A DNA stretch of 64,000 nt. Origin: Utricularia gibba (taxonomy: Eukaryota; Streptophyta; Magnoliopsida; Lamiales; Lentibulariaceae). A model generated the notes under the pieces. The model did no database searches. It was given only the letters and a program-made list of their open reading frames with translations, and was not told the origin of the DNA. The translations under genes and the position numbers were made by a program. Positions 35,479 through 50,900 of this stretch are shown here, one piece after another (position 1 is the first letter of the stretch; the number at the start of each line of letters is the position of its first letter). The stretch covers positions 6,128,501 through 6,192,500 of the forward strand of contig CM007990.1 in NCBI GenBank assembly GCA_002189035.1, read 5' to 3'.

Positions 35479-38331
35479 TCAAATTTCATACGTCATGCCT
35501 ACTCGCAACATCCTGGCATGTGGAATGGCCAGCGTTTGGTCCGCCTGCCGGAAATTTTGTCTCAACAAGTTATATGCCTTGTTGATCACAAACTTCCTTA
35601 GCAAGTTCGATCCCTCCACCGCCACCACCTCCGCCTCTCCGATGAGGTAGAACACGCCTTGCTCCATCGCCCGCTCTACAAATTTCACCTCCTCCTCCGC
35701 CTCCCGGCGACTGTCCCGGTCCAAGGATTGAATTGGTCCGTTGGGATTGGAATGACGAAATGGATTTGTTCTGGTGAAGGCGGCCGCTTCATCCGTAGCA
35801 GACCTGAGATTCTGTTCAAGGATGAACGATTTGAGTTTTTCTATGAGCTGCATCTCGAATTCCTCTCCCTTCTTTATGATGTCTTTGTACCCGTATCGGA
35901 CGACGCAACGGAAAATTCGATACTGCCTAGGCTCCACCTGCCGGAAAAGGAACCGCTCCTCTGGCAACACCCTGCTGATGGGAATGGACTTTATGGAGAC
36001 GAAGATGACGACCGAGTGAAAAGAGGGCACATTCCGAACGAAGTGGGGGAAGATTGGGGGTATCCCCTCAACGAGCTCTGCGTACAGAAGTCCAATTCCC
36101 GGGAGTCTGTTGATGTTAGCATCGGTGGCCAACTGTCTGACGTATTCGCTAGAGACTTTGTGTTTGAGCTCATACATGTAACGATGAACGTGGGTGTAAT
36201 GCCAAACTCCCATGATTGTCAGCAGCACGGCGGCGAAGCACAGGGGAAGGTACCCTCCCTCTGTGAACTTCACCAGGACTGAAGACATGTAGATCAGCTC
36301 TATCGAGATGAAAACTCCAAAGAACAGGGAGATGACCCATATGCTCGTCTTCCAAATCACCACCATGATTAGGCTAACCATGCAGGTGGTTATCAGCATC
36401 ACGGTCAGAACGGCGATACCTGCAACAAAATGACTAGTTTTAGCAGGGGGCCCAATATCATGTTTCTGTGCTTGATGAGTGATTCTGCTCTCTTATGCTC
36501 TGCTCACCGTAAGCATTCCCGATATTGGTGGTGTTTTTGAAGCCCAAAGTGACTAAAACGCAGGCGATCATGAGAATGTAGTTGATTTCAGGGATATAAA
36601 CTTGACCCTCATACTTGGGCGAGGTGTGAATGACCTTCATTCTCGGGAAGCATCTGAGGCTGAGGGATTGAGAAATGATGGCGAAGGCGCCAGAGATCAT
36701 GGCCTGGCTGGCGATGATGGCTGCCATAACGGCGACCACAAACGTCGGCCAGTACAGGGGACCTACAAAAACAAAACAAAACAACACAGATCAGGATGTA
36801 TTTGATTCTCTCTTCTACGTAAAGAAGGCACTCACTCGGTATGCAGGCGTAAAAAGTGTTGCCAACGTTTTCAGGGAATTTGGTTAGATATGCGCCTTGT
36901 CCGATGTATGCCAGACATAATGCAGGAAAAACAAGCGTAGAGAAACTTATTTGGACGGCGCGAACATTGAAATGTCCCAGATCAGCAAACATCGCTTCCG
37001 TTCCTGATGAAACACAAGGATATGTAGTGAGAACGGGGGGGCAGGGTAGAATATGCTGAGTGTATTTTGAAGAAACCAGCCTGTGATGCAGAGAAAAACG
37101 CCGCCTAAAGAAACCCAACCAGTTTTTCCATTCCTCCGGAAGTAATCAACTATGTATTTTGGATTGAAGGCACGCAAGACAGTCACGTCATACTTGATCA
37201 GGTTGTACACCCCAATTCCAGCTATGAAGGAGAACCACACGCAGATTGCCGGAGCAAACGTGTAGCCAACTTTGTCTGTCCCGAATCGTTGCACGCTGAA
37301 CAGGACTACCAATATGGTTGCAGAAATATAGGCCACGGAATCTGCACCACCGACACCAGAAAGCATCCATAATGTGACTGCGCAAAATTAGCATGTAGTA
37401 GTATTCGTAGTTGCTTACCGCCATGGAGACCCTTGATTCCACTCACCGCGGAAAGAACTGAAAATGAAGAAAGGAAGAAAAGGGTTAAGTAGAGACTAGT
37501 GTGGTGTTCAAGATGCCACGATATATTTACCGGAGATACTAGGCGTGAGAACGCCATCTCCCATCACCATAGAAGTTCCTAATATTGCGCAGAGAAAGAG
37601 AGCAACTTTAGCAAAGGCACTTGACTCGAGCTTGTTCTTGATCATTTGTGATCGTCCAAGTCGAGATGGGGGCACCTCAAGCTCATAATTGGATAGATTT
37701 CTATCCTCAGGTTGGTGATTTGGCATAAGACTAACGTTGGCGTACCGACATAGTTTGGAATACAATGCAAATGTTCCTCCTAAAGAGACAAAGCCAGAGG
37801 AGCATCCATCACTCTGTCTTGTTTTTAAATGGCACTTCTATCTATCATCAAAGTTAGGGAGGCCGATATTACCGTCACCGTTGTCGTTGGCCCACAGGAC
37901 GATGAACACGTATTTGATGAATGGTACCAAGGCTATGGTATAGATTATGAGGGATATGACACCCAGTATATCCTGTGTGTTTTTTATCCCATCTGTAAAG
38001 GTGCTGGCGTAAACATACAAAGGGGAAGTTCCAATGTCTCCGTAGATTACTCCGATACTCTGAAACGCCAAGTGCAACGTTGTCTGCCAACATCCCTATT
38101 CAAATTCAACTTTCAGATCATCTGCATAAACTCAAGATATCCGTATAGTAAATCAAAGGTAGTGGTTATTAAGATGACCGGAGCTCCAGCATGGTGCCCT
38201 GGAGAAGAGAAAACATTTCCAGCTTCGACGTGCAAGGAGTCAACATGGCGGAGCCGTTCCCAGGATTCCTTGGTCGCTGCTGGGGCGGCACCGGGATTGT
38301 GCTCTGGTTTTCCATTCAAGCATGCCTCCAT
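35479..38331 (-). CDS. HAK/KUP/KT potassium transporter, cluster I-like (HAK5 type)
   Basis: Plasma-membrane potassium uptake carrier. Eight exons (38331-38179, 38095-37873, 37779-37531, 37457-37419, 37341-37081, 37003-36836, 36762-36508, 36419-35479) sum to 2289 nt, 762 aa. Family hallmarks are [20 protein letters not shown] in the first membrane segment, [56 protein letters not shown], and the cytosolic tail with [20 protein letters not shown] and [20 protein letters not shown]. It ends [12 protein letters not shown], as in cluster I. The exon 5/6 intron has a GC donor (ACAG|GC at 37080-37079) where its paralogue has GT. A TATATATA at 38392-38399 lies about 60 bp upstream of the ATG. Head-to-head with the next transporter, with the same exon structure. 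Confidence 0.92.
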
Positions 38332-40970: not shown

Positions 40971-43859
40971 ATGGCGTCCCCTACTGCTACTGGATACCAA
41001 CGGGAATCAAGTTTCAGCGCCACATCCCAGAAGCAACTTCCCGACGCTAACAATAAAGGCCTCCATCATGCGGATTCTCTGAATGTCGAGGCCGGAGATG
41101 TTTCCACTGCTCCAAGCCATCGCGCCGGAGCTCCGGTAATCCCGTTGATCACCCATCCTACATGCTCGATTTCCCCGTGTTTTATCTACTGAGATCTGGA
41201 ACAGGCGAGTTGGCAGAGAACGTTGCGCTTGGCGTTTCAGAGCATCGGAGTAATATATGGAGACATCGGGACCTCGCCCCTGTACGTCTATTCCAGCACC
41301 TTCACAGAGGGAATCAAGAACAGAGATGACATCCTGGGTGTTCTTTCACTCATAATCTACACTGTAATTTTGATCCCCATCATCAAATACGTCTTCATCG
41401 TGTTGTGGGCTAACGATCACGGCGACGGTAAATCCCCGACCCCCATTCTTCGCTCTTTCTTTCTATGCAGCTACTGCTGCAATGATTTCTAGCGTTATAT
41501 TGATTAGGAGGAACTTTTGCACTGTACTCAAAAATCTGCCGGTACGCCAAAGTCAGTCTCATACCAAATCATCAACCCGAGGATAGAAGCCTATCCAACT
41601 ATGAGGTGCTCGAGGAGGCACAGTCATCTCTACTTGGACGATCTAAATTAATCAAAAACAAACTCGAGTCGAGTACCTACGCCAAGATTATCCTTTTTCT
41701 CTGCGCAATATTAGGAACTTCCATGGTGATCGGAGATGGTGTTCTCACTCCTAGCATCTCTGGTCAGAGAATGGAAAAGTCTTTTTTACTGTTAATTCAA
41801 TTCGACCCAACAGTACACGTATCCATAATTTTTTCTTTCTTCCCTTGCAGTTCTTTCTGCCGTCGGTGGAATCAAGGGTCTTCACGGAGGTAACCACATA
41901 CTCCGTTTGTGCAGGTGGGTGGAACCATGGAGATTATATCAATAAATTCATGTCCTTGCTCATGGTTGCAGATTCTGTTGTCTACATATCGGCAGCCATT
42001 TTGGTGGTTCTCTTCTGCGCGCAAAGATTCGGGACGGACAAAGTCGGTTACACTTTTGCGCCAGCGATCACCTTGTGGTTCTTGTTCATAGCGGGAATCG
42101 GTGTCTACAACTTGATCACCTACGACGTCTCCGTCTTGAGGGCTTTCAATCCGAGATACATAATCGATTACTTCCAGAGAAACGGAAAAACTGGATGGGT
42201 TTCTTTGGGTGGAGTTGTTCTCTGCATCACAGGTTCCCGCTTTCTTAAACGCTTCCTAAAGTCACTGCGCAAAACATGACTACCTCACGGTCATGTGGCT
42301 GACTATTACATGTGTTTGCTCCGTTCTATTATTCCATCAGGAACTGAGGCGATGTTTGCTGATCTGGGCCATTTCAATGTTCGTGCCATCCAAATAAGTT
42401 TCACAACCATGGTTTTTCCAGCTATATCGCTTGCCTACATCGGACAAGGTGCATACCTCACCAGATTCCCAGAAAACGTCAGCAATACTTTCTATGCCTC
42501 CATACCCAGTAAGTTGGCCATCCACTTTGTTTAATCGTCTCATAGCAGAGCAATGAGGCAAAAAACACAAACAGCTTGTGTTATTTTGTAGAACCAATCT
42601 ACTGGCCAATGTTCGTGGTAGCGGTTGTGGCTGCCATAATAGCCAGCCAAGCCATGATCTCCGGCACCTTTGCCATTATTTCTCAATCACTCAGTCTCGG
42701 CTGCTTCCCCAGAGTGAAAGTTATTCACACATCAGCCAAATACGAGGGCCAAGTCTACATTCCTGAAATCAACTACCTCCTCATGACCGCCTGTGTTGTG
42801 GTGACCTTAGCCTTCAAGACAACCACCAGCATCGGCAATGCATATGGTGATAAGATCAAAAAAATATCCTCAGATGATTATCAAAGCGTCCCTTTATTCA
42901 CAATCTTTCTTGCAGGTATTGCTGTTGTGGCTGTGATGCTGATCACAACCTCCATGGTGACTCTGATCATGCTTGTCATATGGAATACGAGTATATGGCT
43001 GATCGCGTTATTTTTCGGAGTGTTTATCACTATAGAAATTATCTACTTCTCATCTGTTTTGTTCAAGTTCACTCAGGGAGGCTACCTTCCTCTGGCCTTC
43101 GCAGCAGTGCTGATGACAGTCATGGGAATTTGGCACTACGTCCACAAACAACGTTACATGTACGAGCTGAGGCACAAGGTCTCGAGTGATTACGTCAAAC
43201 ACCTGGCGATCGACGCTAATATCAACAGATTGCCCGGAATAGGACTTCTATACGCAGAGCTCGTTCAGGGAATTCCCCCAATCTTCCCCCATTTTGTTCG
43301 AAATGTGCCCTCTGTTCATTCGGTCATCATCTTCGTGTCTATAAAGTCGATTCCCATCAGTAGGGTGTTGCCAGAGGAGCGATTCCTTTTCCGGCAGGTG
43401 GAGCCCAAGGAATATCGAGTATTCAGGTGCGTTGTCAGGTACGGATACAATGATGTGATCAAGGAGGCCAATGAGTTCGAGACTCAGCTGTTGGAGAGCC
43501 TGAAAGCCTTCATCCGCCGTGAGAATTACAACAATCTCATGACTGAATCAGCAGTAGCTGCTCCACCTCCTCACTCCAGTGCTCTCCTGGTAGCTGAGGA
43601 GTCGCTGGAGCAAGTACCAGCAGTGGAGTGCGAAGAGAGAGTTTCATCGATGCAATTCGTCGATAGAGCGATGGCGGAGGGCGTGTTCTACCTGATCGGA
43701 GAAGCGGAGGTGGTGGCGCGTCATGATTCCAACTTGTTGAGAAGTTTCGTGATCAACAAGGCCTACAGTTTCTTGAGGAAGAACTTCCGGGAGGCGGGGG
43801 AGACGCTGGCGATTCCGCGTGACAGAATGCTTCGCGTCGGTATGACCTACGAAATATGA
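40971..43859 (+). CDS. HAK/KUP/KT potassium transporter, cluster I-like (HAK5 type), second copy
   Basis: Paralogue of the transporter at 35479-38331. Eight exons (40971-41135, 41205-41427, 41508-41762, 41851-41889, 41972-42232, 42341-42508, 42592-42846, 42916-43859) sum to 2310 nt, 769 aa. Exons 2, 4, 5, 6 and 7 have exactly the same lengths as in the neighbour (223, 39, 261, 168, 255), showing descent from one gene. Motifs include [54 protein letters not shown] and [17 protein letters not shown], ending [12 protein letters not shown]. The copies differ most in the N-terminal ~45 residues and in the tail before the last 70 residues (here [16 protein letters not shown]). Intron 7 is 69 bp with no in-frame stop, so its retention would add 23 residues without breaking the protein. 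Confidence 0.94.
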
Positions 43860-44290
43860 AAAGCTATAATACAGCATAAAGACTAGAACGCAAAGCGTCC
43901 GAGTACATTGGCCAGCTCGGTGCCCCTAGTTGTGTGTGTGTGCGTGGATGATGAATTGATCACGGAATCAAAGCGGCCTTTCTGGTGGCGATTCAACTCC
44001 AACCCGGATACTTAAACAAGACTCAATCGTTTCCTAGCACAAAACCTGGTCTCTCGTTTTAGCCCGCTTTTCTTGAGTCCATGGTGGACTGTTTATCTGA
44101 TCCAACAAACTGTCCATAAACCGTGCAAAGCAAAACTTTTTCCATCTTGAACAGGGGCGAGTATTCCTTCAATCATACGCTCACCACAGAGTATGCATGG
44201 AGTAGTCAAGAGCTGTATTCTGCCCGATTGCTCTAGGAAGGCCATCAAATATGGGGATGGCTGCAGAAGAAAGAGCGTGAAAATCTGATT
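43860..44290. other. Spacer after the plus-strand HAK gene
   Basis: 3' UTR and spacer; a short TG run (GTGTGTGTGTGCG) lies near 43931-43945. No gene seen. Confidence 0.35.
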
Positions 44291-45284: not shown

Positions 45285-48106
45285 ATGTCCGGCTCTGGAC
45301 TGACTATGACTCCTCAAATGGAGCAGCTTCATGGAGAAATTCGCGACACTATGCGGGCCATTGCGTATGACTTCTTAACATACTTCGCTCTGCTCTTGTG
45401 TAGATTATCGGAATCAGTTTTTACTGTTCCTGTTGCGCCTGTTTCTGTTTCATCTCGAAGTGAGGATTTAAGCTGCCCCAACGAGCTGATTTGCTTTCAC
45501 ATAACTTTCCTCTGAAGGATCTCTTTATTGCTTCTGTTGGATTGCTCTTACTTTTAATTTTACGTAACTTAGTGCTGGGAAATCCTAACTCTTGCTTCAG
45601 TGTAAATCAGACTTCGTACTGGAGCTATTGACTTGCTTGCTTCTTTTCATAACCAGACATGGATTTCAGAAATTGGATAAAATCAAGGAGCCTAATAGGC
45701 AAAGTAAGCAGTTGGAGGAGCTTACTGGGAAGATGAGAGAGTGTAAAAGGTAACATAACTGTTTTTTTGTGCAGCATGTTGGATTTGCCAGTCGTTTAAA
45801 CCTTCTGTTTGGCTGTTGGTGTCGTCTTCTAAGGCTTATTCTTTGTTCAAATTTACGTGCTTTTGATTAATATTGATGCCAAAAACTTGCAGATTGATTA
45901 AGGATTTTGACTCTGAAATTAAGGACGAGGAATCAAAGAATCCTCCGGAAGTTCACAAGCTGCTAATTGAGGAAAAACAATCTATGGTAAGTGTGACGAC
46001 TTGGAAAATTTCATTTTCAAGAAGTGGTCGTGTATATAAAATGTTTATTCTTCATAGTACAAGTAACAATGCTTTTGTTTCAGAAATTTAATTTTTATTA
46101 ATGATTCATCTACTGCGTGCATATATTGATATGATGCAGTGTCTCAATGAAAGCATCTCTCTTCTTTCCTTTTTTGAGTTTCTCGAAGAAAATAACTACA
46201 TCTGCAATCCTGTTAATTCTACATTAATCACGTAGCTTGCACAGAAGGGCTTGGAGTGTTTCTGTAATATTATGATGTGTTTTGTTTGTGAAATCTTCTC
46301 TGTAGTAGAACGACGTTGGTGGATTACTGTTCATTGATTTTTAGGTTTCCAATCTTCCATTGACATGGTGGAGTTCTACTTTTGTATTGTAGTGTCAATA
46401 TTATATGTCGAATTCTATTGTAGCGTTAACCTTTATGGGTAGGAGGTGCATCTTAAACCAGTACCTTGTTCTACCTTTTATGTTGTTATGATTCAGTTCT
46501 CTTTTGCAGATAAAAGAGTTGAATTCATATGTTAGTTTGAGGAAAACGTAAGTTTGTTTTTTTCTTTGTCTGTCCTAATGTTGTACTATGAAATTTTTTT
46601 ATTCTCTGACTACATCCTTCTCATATTTAGTGTTTTTCCATGATTTGTTTTCTCTTTTTACACAGTTGCATTTTCTCCCATTTGTTCGTGCAGTTATATG
46701 AGCACTCTTGGAAATAAAAGGGTAGAATTGTTTGATATTGGAACTGGTGTTTCAGAGCCAATGGCTGATGAGAATGTTAAAGTGGCATCAGGTTGTATCC
46801 TGTATCTTTTTTTTTTTCCATTTTTTTAACTGGGTTCCCTACTAGCAGTACTTGAATGTTTGGATAGTTGTCCAACTGAATGAGGTCAGGATCATCTTAG
46901 TGTATGCTAATCTTAAAGCCTCGCGTTCTGAATTATACAGGTTCTGCTGCACCAAGAACTCGTAGTGGCTTAAGCACTTACTAGACTCTCCTTCTTTCCC
47001 TTTTTTTTTTTAATGTAGAAATGTCAAATCAGGAGCTTATTAGTGCGGGTATGAAGACAATGGATGAAACAGACCAAGCCATTGAGCGATCTAAACAGGT
47101 AATTTTCATTTCATTGGATAACCCCTCTTGAAAAATATAAGACAAGTAAGTTATCCACCGTGTTGTATCTGAACTTACTGTCACCGTAGGTTGTTCACCA
47201 AACTGTTGAAGTTGGAACACAAACAGCTGCTGCATTGAAGGGCCAAGTCAGTTATCCACTGTGCTGGTCTCGTTGTCATGTCTTCAATCGCCTTCGTTTA
47301 TACTAACTGGTGGTTTCTTTATTGCAATTCATGTAGACTGAGCAAATGGGTCGTATCGTGAATGAATTGGACACTATCCAGTTTTCCCTCAAAAGGGCAT
47401 CACAGCTTGTGAGGGAAATCGGTAGGCAGGTACATCAGTTACAAAAAAGAAAAAAAAAACCATATGAAAGTGTATTCTACCTGTCTGCGGCAATACTATA
47501 GCATGTGTCTGGAAGCTTGCGAATGCCTCTGTAATATGAGACCGAAATTAGGATCCCGCATAGGTTACATGAACCGCACTGTATATTATCCTTCATTCCA
47601 GCATGCTGTAAGTGAATATTCACCCTCTTCCTATTTACAATTTTACAGGTGGCTACTGACAAATGCATCATGCTTTTCCTTTTTCTAATCGTGTGTGGAG
47701 TTATTGCCATCATTGTGGTTAAGGTACATACACAGACCCATTTAGGTTTCTCAAGCTTCACCCAATCATGTCTTCCTTACCGCTTTATGCAGTTTTGTTT
47801 TAGTTGATCCAGGTTTTACCAGGAGAACTGCATGATCCTGGACTACTAAGATTTTACTCTTTTCCATTTCTTTTTAAAATCACGTAGTCTCTGAATTACC
47901 GCTTTTTATTTTTATTATTGCATTGCTATTTCTTCTATTTTACCCTTGACCCTGCCATATGTGATTTTAATGATTGGTAAACTATGCTATTGTAGATTGT
48001 GAATCCCAACAACCGAAATATTAGAGATATCCCTGGATTGGCTCCTCCTGCACAGACGTCAAGGAGATTACTGTATTCAAAGGCATTAGCACCGTATCTT
48101 GAGTGA
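45285..48106 (+). CDS. Novel plant SNARE, NPSN13-like
   Basis: Qb-type SNARE unique to plants and some protists, acting in membrane fusion at the plasma membrane and cell plate. Ten exons (45285-45364, 45657-45749, 45893-45986, 46510-46547, 46694-46791, 47019-47098, 47190-47246, 47337-47429, 47649-47723, 47996-48106) sum to 819 nt, 272 aa. The N-terminal helical part reads MTPQMEQLHGEIRD, HGFQKLDKIKEPNRQSKQLE, ELTGKMRECKRLIKDFD. The SNARE motif runs from MSNQELISAGMKTMDETDQA through EQMGRIVNELDTIQFSLKRA, with the membrane anchor CIMLFLFLIVCGVIAIIVVK and a short luminal tail IVNPNNRNIRDIPGLAPPAQ. NKRVELFDIGTG and the DIPGLAPPAQ tail are closest to NPSN13. Every exon joint keeps the family frame. 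Confidence 0.95.
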
Positions 48107-48527
48107 ACGTATGTTCTGCAATAGGGTCAACCATCATTCAGTTTCTTGTTCTATATGTCCATTACTGCGTGTGAATAGAGGGTGTGCGTACCTGAATTGA
48201 AACATCTTTCTTCACTTCATTGGTTGAACCTGGAAGTTCATAAGATTGTGTTTTAGCTTGTTTCATTGCGAGGTCTACATAATTTTGATGAATCTGGCAG
48301 GTCTTCCACAAGGTTCGCATCTACGCTCAAACTAAGTGGATATGATGCAGAAGGCCACGCGCCTCTGAAACATAATACAGCAAACTCACCTGATCAATAA
48401 ATGAGCTCTCAATTCAGAAACCTGGGGGAAAATACATATCTGCAAGAGCACACACAAAACCACACCAAAAGCAATATTTTGAAGAGTCGGACCCTTCATC
48501 GTCAACATGTTGAAGTATGAATGGCGT
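48107..48527. other. Convergent spacer
   Basis: 3' ends of the SNARE gene (+) and the PTI1-like gene (-) face each other here. No gene seen. Confidence 0.4.
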
Positions 48528-50246
48528 TTAGCTGGATGAGCTGGATCGTGCATTCAGTAGAGGCTGCAGTGTATTCACTATAATGCTGATGTTGGGACGA
48601 AAATCTGCCTCATATTGCACACACAAGGCAGCAACTGCGGCCATCTGTTTTTGTGTCCACCAATTCATAATAAGCGCATGCAGTCAAACGATTAGTTTTT
48701 TATTTTGATATGAATGAAAATAAATCTTACTTGCCTTAGCAACTGCCTTAGGAGGGTAATTCCCATCGAGTCTAGCATCCACGCACTGCTGTACCTTGTC
48801 CTCGCTCAGCTTGGGCGTTGCCTCATTATTCCCGCCTTTTGTTCAGAACGACGGCCATGAAGCAATAGAGAAAATGCTGTGCAATAAGTGGTGGATTTAC
48901 CCATGTCACAAGGCTCTGCTGCCCCCTCGGTAGTGTACGATCCACCGGTTTACGGCCGGTCAAGAGTTCCAGCAGCACAACACCGAAGCTGTAGACATCA
49001 CTCTTTGAGGTTAGTTGGCCTGTCATTGCAGACCTGCAACCAAAGAGAAGAATCCAGCACTGTGGAAAAGAACAAAACAGACCCTTGTATCCATTACGTC
49101 TCACCGTCTAACCTAAATTACAAGGGCCACTCGAAAGAGGAAATAATATCGGGGAGCATACTCTGGGGCATGATATCCAAAAGTTCCTAGAACACGAGTC
49201 GAATGAAGTCGCGCTGCCATGTCTGGGGCTTGGTTTGACAAATCAAAATCCGCAATCTTAGCAACATCATCGTGGAAAAGTAAGACGTCGCTTGACTTGA
49301 TGCCACAATGAATTATAGAGGGTTGTGCCTTTTCATGCAAATATTCCAACCCCTTAGCAGCCCAACGGCAATTTTAACTCTTTGGGACCATGATAAAGCA
49401 GGACCCGGAGTTGCAGTTTTATCACCTTTTCGTCCTGCACGTAGCTAAAGAGGTTGGAGTTCCCAAACAATGCAATTATTAGGGAGACATCCTGAGTGAA
49501 CCGATTATTAGATCATCAAATTCTGCATGCGTATAATATCCCTGATAGCACGCTTACAGATATATGACTTAATTTTCTTCCCTAGAAAGATTTTCGAAAG
49601 CATTTGAGAAGTTCAACTAGGGGAATTACTCACCGTGCAGCATGTCATGCAAAGACCCCCTTGGAGCAAATTCATAGGCCAAAACTCGAAGACCACCGAC
49701 GACACAGTAGCCAAGAAGCTGAACCACATTTTCACACATTATGCGGGACATCATAGAGACCTGAAACACAGTGTCAGGAAACCATCGAAAGTTGATGTGA
49801 AGTGTTCAATCAGGGAAATGTGAGGCAACGATGCAGACAAACTTGCGATAAAAATTCTTGATCCGGTTGCTTGCTAGAATCCAACTTCTTTATTGCTACA
49901 TCCTGTCCATTTTTGAGAGTCCCACGATAGACCCTCCCATAGGAGCCCTCACCAATCAAAGAACCTTGGCCAAAATTATCAGTTATGTCCCTAAGTTCCT
50001 CCACTGAAATTTCAGGGACATCAATAGGCTGTATGCTAATATATTTCCTGTCCTCAAGGGCGGTTTCCATGGCTCGATGTCCTGCGGGATTGCCTACGGA
50101 AAATTCTGCTGGGATAAACGAAGACAAAATCATCCAAATAAGGACAACCTGAGAGAAGGCTCACCAGCAGAATAGTTTGTCTGATAGGATCGGTTAACAC
50201 GAGCCCTACGTGTGTCATCGTCATCACAACAGCTGAAGCAACTCAT
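48528..50246 (-). pseudogene. PTI1-like receptor-like cytoplasmic kinase with frameshift and lost HRD motif
   Basis: Family VIII cytoplasmic Ser/Thr kinase (Pto-interacting 1 type), usually acylated through an N-terminal Cys-rich motif and downstream of OXI1/receptor kinases. The N-terminus MSCFSCCDDDDTRRARV matches. The glycine loop ([13 protein letters not shown]), lysine ([16 protein letters not shown]), DFD loop ([20 protein letters not shown]), APE (GYHAPE) and the C-lobe ([20 protein letters not shown]) are all readable. Two lesions stand out. One base is missing near 49361-49363 (GTTGGGCTGC where [10 protein letters not shown] needs GTTGGGGCTGC). The catalytic HRDIKSSN reads HCGIKSSD (about 49302-49310), so Arg and the catalytic Asp are lost. 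The last exon starts [18 protein letters not shown] and ends at 48528. The intron before it has a GC donor of consensus form (AAG|GCAAGT). Splice sites otherwise look usable. Confidence 0.82.
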
Positions 50247-50900
50247 GATTTAATGGTGCATTGAAAATATCCGAAAAAATGGGAAAAACTGTCAGAACAT
50301 GATCCCCAAGAATGATAACGGGTTCTTATTCGATTTGGAGGAAAAAAACGCATTCGTCCATTATAACGTGCTTCTTTTACATGAGAAATCTTTGGAGGCA
50401 CTTCATTTGAAACCAAAGTTTGAGAACATCTGTCACCTTGTCAGAGGAAACATAAACTCGCAGCGCACTTGAATAATTCGAAAGAATAGAAGTGCAGTAT
50501 TTCAAATGTTTCGATAAGTGTAACTCCTAAGAGATTCAACAGTATACGGCATCCGTGATGATTCGGAGATGGACCTTCAATATTGAGATACGCAAGCAAT
50601 CTTGGTATCCCTAATTGCCGGCAGGAATAAAAATCATTTGGATTCACACCTTTAAACAGAATACCCAACGAAAACGCAAAGCCAGAAACAAAAGAACATG
50701 AAACAGAAGATGCAATGCGAAATAAAACGCAAGCCAGGAAACAAACTGACGTACATAAAGGACAACGGCCGACGCCTTACCGGAAGAGAGTTTAGTGATG
50801 GTGAATATGAGGGTTGAAAATGCTTGGGACCTACTGCTGCAGTCGAAACACGGGAGGAGACGATAGTGAGTAAATCACCTATTTCATCGCCCGCCATACT
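50247..50900 (-). other. 5' UTR/intron region of the PTI1-like gene with a possible upstream exon
   Basis: On the minus strand at 50897 an ATG opens a short frame (MAGDEIGDLLTIVSSRV...) ending at a good donor (TTCCG|GTAAGG) near 50780. It could be a 5' UTR exon with an upstream ORF. I found no partner coding exon that joins it to the kinase in frame. Confidence 0.3.

Follow-up and report, generated by a model that had tools for sequence, protein, structure and literature searches.

The window analysed here, 64,000 nucleotides of the Utricularia gibba genome (contig CM007990.1, positions 6,128,501 to 6,192,500), contains a PTI1-like kinase gene whose catalytic loop is HCGIKSSD and whose reading frame is broken. 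In the kinase fold the HRD aspartate is the catalytic base, and the locus raises the question of whether such a gene is a young pseudogene or encodes a pseudokinase that has been retained. Our best reading, which on the sequence evidence we consider probable, is that this gene (here termed W) is the dying duplicate of a retained pseudokinase gene (termed P) located elsewhere in the same genome, and that the aspartate would have been lost once (HRD to HRG), before the two copies were separated by duplication.

Structure of the W gene and its lesions

W is a seven-exon PTI1-like (RLCK-VIII) gene on the minus strand of the window (50246-48528), the features of which are collected in Table 1. A sequence-only reading of this stretch had claimed that the catalytic aspartate is absent, that one base is missing upstream of the loop and that the splice sites are preserved. 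All three observations hold: the loop lacks the aspartate, exon 4 measures 273 nt compared to 274 in P, and the splice sites are all intact. The frame that follows the deletion reaches a stop immediately upstream of the catalytic loop. The acylation motif noted in the same reading is present in a narrower sense: its MSCFSCC sequence retains Cys3, Cys6 and Cys7, but residue 2 is Ser instead of the required glycine, so that the motif would be one of S-acylation and not of myristoylation. Comparison with P and the relatives assigns four changes to W only, i.e., R197C, N203D, Y246S and the frameshift.

Intron 6 (window 48734-48645; L009:5440-5535) has a GC donor in W and P and a GT donor in the other four RLCK-VIII genes. 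The GC-AG intron is a derived state common to W and P.

Table 1. Features of the W locus and its duplicated segment, in window positions
Feature	Position	Strand	Remarks
W exon 1	50246-50165	-	start codon and MSCFSCC acylation motif
W exon 2	50093-49843	-	glycine-rich loop GEGSYGRV, ATP-binding lysine (AIKK)
W exon 3	49760-49634	-	
W exon 4	49434-49162	-	frameshift, HCG loop, DFD, activation segment
W exon 5	49033-48901	-	PES; PEY in P and all relatives
W exon 6	48821-48735	-	followed directly by the GC-AG intron common to P
W exon 7	48644-48528	-	ends in stop codon
One-base deletion relative to P	49363-49361	-	within GGG, exon 4
HCG codons CAT TGT GGC	49310-49302	-	P counterpart CAT CGT GGC (HRG)
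SNARE gene beside W	45306..48103	+	ten recognised exon pieces, all intact
Duplicated segment (SNARE and PTI1-like gene)	45361..50897		copy at G000:C451:25321-30230

A sister gene without the catalytic aspartate

Searching the genome from which the window derives, for which a long-read assembly of 581 contigs with an N50 of 3.4 Mb has been described (PMC5793159), revealed the second copy, P, at G000:C451:25974-27651. Its DNA is 84% and 81% identical to the two halves of W; its seven exons correspond to those of W and make up a full frame of 356 aa, with no stops or indels. The P loop is HRGIKSSN; the catalytic aspartate is therefore absent in this copy too, and the Asp-to-Gly change is represented in both genes by the identical GGC codon. 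W and P differ at about 11% of the coding and about 21% of the intron positions, and a loss observed in two loci so far apart is not a sequencing error. A read error at the HRD site of W is rejected for the same reason, as the Gly codon recurs at a separate locus, and it is very unlikely that reads would show HRD at W when P independently has the same codon. The possibility that W and P are alleles is likewise rejected, in view of the intron divergence and the different flanks.

The two proteins share an MSCF(S/G)CC N-terminus (W/P), and the kinase domain of P begins at residue 71, with no receptor or transmembrane part. P matches the Pfam kinase domain at 1.5e-47 and retains Cys3/6/7, the glycine loop, the ATP-binding K96, the Mg-binding N203, the DFD motif and, in the activation loop, a threonine that by equal numbering would correspond to Thr233. 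The changes found only in P are conservative in nature (I/L, R/K, V/I, D/E and G/S), whereas those found only in W strike conserved or invariant sites. Neither W (HCG) nor P (HRG) thus possesses the HRD aspartate of an active kinase, and P combines the loss of this catalytic motif with a fold that, as judged from its sequence, is retained, as expected of a pseudokinase.

Placement among the RLCK-VIII genes

A query with the catalytic region identified six RLCK-VIII genes in the searched genome, after which the hits weaken steeply, from 2.5e-23 to 3e-11. HRD is kept in four of the six genes, namely A1 and A2, which read HRDIRSSN and DFN, and M1 and M2, presumably MARIS-like, which read HRDVRSSN; it is absent only in W and P. 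A1 and A2 also consist of seven exons, and exons 2-7 were matched in M1 and M2, exon 1 having been left out of these models. In the phylogenetic tree, W and P are grouped with Arabidopsis CARK1 (support 99/98). The latter (PDB 5xd6) is the closest solved relative, 84% identical to P over 301 aa and 82% to W, and reads HRD. Of the six genes found, W and P alone belong to the PTI1/CARK1 branch, and an unseen HRD copy of the branch may exist in genome stretches that fall into gaps or lie outside the sequence searched.

Selection on the two copies

The comparison of W with P gives a dN of 0.058 and a dS of 0.363 (NG86). Synonymous sites are saturated relative to the remaining paralogues, which leaves no means of apportioning the change between the W and P branches; omega was therefore estimated for W, P and the background using a codon model in which a clock is imposed within each gene pair. 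In this model, the omega of P is 0.093, which differs from 1 (p 4e-16) and not from the background value of 0.057 (p 0.31). The omega of W is 0.244 and differs both from 1 (p 7e-10) and from the background (p 8e-6). The dN/dS comparison with the paralogues, which had been suggested as a check on W, thus shows relaxed constraint, yet an omega that is far below 1. A clock-free branch model yields a joint omega of 0.169, and in that model neither W nor P alone excludes 1; an amino-acid rate test (13 W-only versus 7 P-only changes) was not significant (p 0.26).

The designation of W as a young pseudogene, one of the two interpretations originally offered, is in keeping with its single frameshift, its relaxed omega and its changes at invariant sites. 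It does not extend to neutral evolution: the disrupted frame renders W a candidate pseudogene, subject to possible assembly error, but its omega with the clock is 0.244, and 0.240 in the part 3' of the frameshift. The introns of the pair provide a measure of the lesions to be expected. They contain 31 gap events in 571 aligned bases, which, scaled to the coding sequence, predicts about 58 indels between the two copies; one is observed. In the absence of selection, each lineage should have accumulated about 6.5 stops, and none is observed. A W gene left unconstrained since the duplication would thus carry about 35 lesions (half of the 58 indels plus the 6.5 stops), and the single one seen places the loss of its frame, by estimate, within roughly the last sixth of the post-duplication time at most. 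The constraint on W 5' of the frameshift (omega 0.256) equals that on its 3' part, which indicates that the frameshift is either very recent or an assembly error.

If the frameshift were an assembly error, W would encode a full-length HCG pseudokinase, a situation that is compatible with our reading of P. Early PacBio assemblies (presumably the platform used here) typically retain consensus errors in which one base of a G run is lost, and this, together with the equal constraint on both sides of the site, makes an error a serious possibility. We nevertheless lean against it, since the constraint on W is relaxed and additional invariant residues have been replaced in it, and a non-systematic look at other genes of the window revealed no obvious single-base breaks.

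The duplicated segment

The segment that includes W and P also harbors a SNARE gene, which we take to be NPSN11-like. Next to W this gene is intact; in the copy beside P (L009:6093-7862), no convincing counterpart is seen for five of the ten exon pieces, frameshifts disrupt two, and the last contains a stop. With the SNARE gene intact at W and decayed at P, and the kinase gene broken at W and intact at P, the two loci exhibit reciprocal loss after duplication. The M1/M2 pair is located on the same two contigs as W and P, which fits a duplicated chromosome region. P itself is positioned 26 kb from the telomere-repeat end of contig C451, the start of which (G000:C451:1-300, L044) shows AAACCCT telomere repeats interspersed with AACCCTC-type variants.

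When the aspartate was lost

Most simply, the loss of the aspartate would predate the W/P duplication. The two genes have 37 differences from CARK1 in common, which are assigned to the stem before the duplication. A different history, in which the loss is recent and either spread by short gene conversion or occurred in parallel, would mean that most of the measured constraint dates from the era of an active kinase. Such a history could draw on the 15 identical bases that span the Gly codon in W and P, and on the clock-free model, which leaves their rates unsplit. A parallel change to the identical GGC codon would however be a coincidence, and any conversion tract must have been very short, as differences resume right beside the codon on both sides; we therefore regard a recent loss as unlikely. 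Provided that the loss came before the duplication and that the clock applies, the omega of 0.093 indicates that P has been under purifying selection after catalysis was lost. The second original interpretation, that of a retained pseudokinase, thus does not apply to W, but would apply to its intact sister, which lay beyond the view of the sequence-only reading.

By extension, the whole PTI1/CARK1 branch in this genome may have become pseudokinase before the duplication, one copy having since been constrained by selection as tightly as its HRD relatives, such that the signalling of the branch (ABA receptors, OXI1/Pto-type immunity) could proceed without catalysis in a natural species. We advance this broader proposal tentatively, as one that is nearly as likely to hold as to fail.

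Comparison with characterized proteins

ABA receptors are substrates of CARK1, which is an active kinase (PMC6006248). Arabidopsis CARK1 (At3g17410) resembles W and P in its branch, the DFD motif, the same K and N residues (the latter being Asp at 203 in W) and 84% kinase-domain identity; it is HRD-containing and active, whereas W and P are devoid of the aspartate. The counterpart of P N203 in CARK1 is N204, the alanine mutant of which is catalytically inactive and fails to bind ABA receptors (PMC6322571); this inactive CARK1-N204A may exert a dominant-negative effect (PMC6006248). SlPti1, ZmPti1a and OsPti1a (of tomato, maize and rice, respectively) are RLCK-VIII proteins that have Cys in the N-terminal region, a DFD-type motif, Thr233 and K96 in common with the present pair (PMC1609167, PMC8960991). 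K96 is needed for SlPti1 activity (PMC1609167), and Thr233 is phosphorylated by Pto and OXI1 (PMC8960991). SlPti1 and ZmPti1a autophosphorylate, whereas the HRG and HCG motifs of P and W predict a loss of activity.

No adjacent acidic residue in P obviously substitutes for the missing catalytic base, and it is accordingly doubtful that P has kept kinase activity through some atypical mechanism, even though K96, N203, DFD, the glycine loop and the Thr233 equivalent are all kept. The plant pseudokinase ILK1 is active despite a degenerate catalytic motif, one other than the loss of the HRD aspartate, and activity is disputed for the animal ILKs that lack this residue (PMC9403797). It is similarly unlikely that both copies are heading towards pseudogenes, the branch being dispensable and P intact by chance: the frameshift and invariant-site changes of W and the many stem substitutions could be viewed in this manner, but P evolves much like the HRD relatives (0.093 versus 0.057), would have avoided stops without selection with a probability of about 0.0014, indels left uncounted, and acquired no lesion in its kinase frame over the period in which the adjacent SNARE gene decayed.

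A proposed non-catalytic role for P

On the preferred reading, namely that P is retained and W is dying, the PTI1/CARK1 branch would have lost its catalytic aspartate once, ahead of the segment or genome duplication that gave rise to W and P, and P would have been retained from then on in a non-catalytic signalling capacity. Its product should still be able to bind nucleotide, interact with partners and become phosphorylated, but would lack the usual means of passing phosphate on. Most likely it would bind, and be phosphorylated by, upstream kinases and other partners, acting at the plasma membrane as scaffold or competitor instead of phosphorylating substrates itself. W, in turn, has acquired R197C, N203D and Y246S, and has either only just lost its frame or suffered one assembly error.

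The scaffold or competitor role is our best guess, based on the probable dominant-negative behavior of CARK1-N204A and on the inactive MAZ and CARK6, which restrain the oxidative burst in Arabidopsis (PMC11981891). MAZZA, CARK6 and CARK7 of Arabidopsis are RLCK-VIII proteins that act without catalysis, as proposed for P; they keep most active-site features and contain DFN, and A1 and A2 are closer to them (PMC11981891). W and P, unlike these three, have lost the HRD aspartate itself and belong to a DFD branch. RKS1 and ZED1 (RLCK-XII) and BIR2 are likewise pseudokinase adaptors or regulators in plant immunity, from subfamilies other than that of W and P (PMC12170986, PMC11981891). Inactive RLCK-VIII proteins with biological roles are already known, and the aspartate loss in W and P would add another case. 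In the part of the literature covered, we found no report of a PTI1/CARK1 gene without the HRD aspartate, nor of W or P in Utricularia.

Since the discovery that MAZZA and CARK6/7 function in the absence of catalysis, it has been an open question whether RLCK-VIII proteins require it. A species with only Asp-less PTI1/CARK1-branch genes, one of which is strongly conserved, offers a natural test of the non-catalytic role versus kinase activity, and P points to the protein surfaces that are still protected by selection.

In A1 and A2 (L010 = C304:2126.2-2127.9 kb; L048), DFN replaces DFG, as reported for MAZ and CARK7 (PMC11981891). In view of this likeness to inactive proteins, non-catalytic function may reach other RLCK-VIII genes of this genome.

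Elsewhere in the window, two KUP-type potassium transporter genes (41000-43860 and about 35820-38091) occur in opposite orientation and are 72% alike. Relatives of these genes are clustered at G000:C412:35000-47000, with matching pieces at C451:599000-604000.
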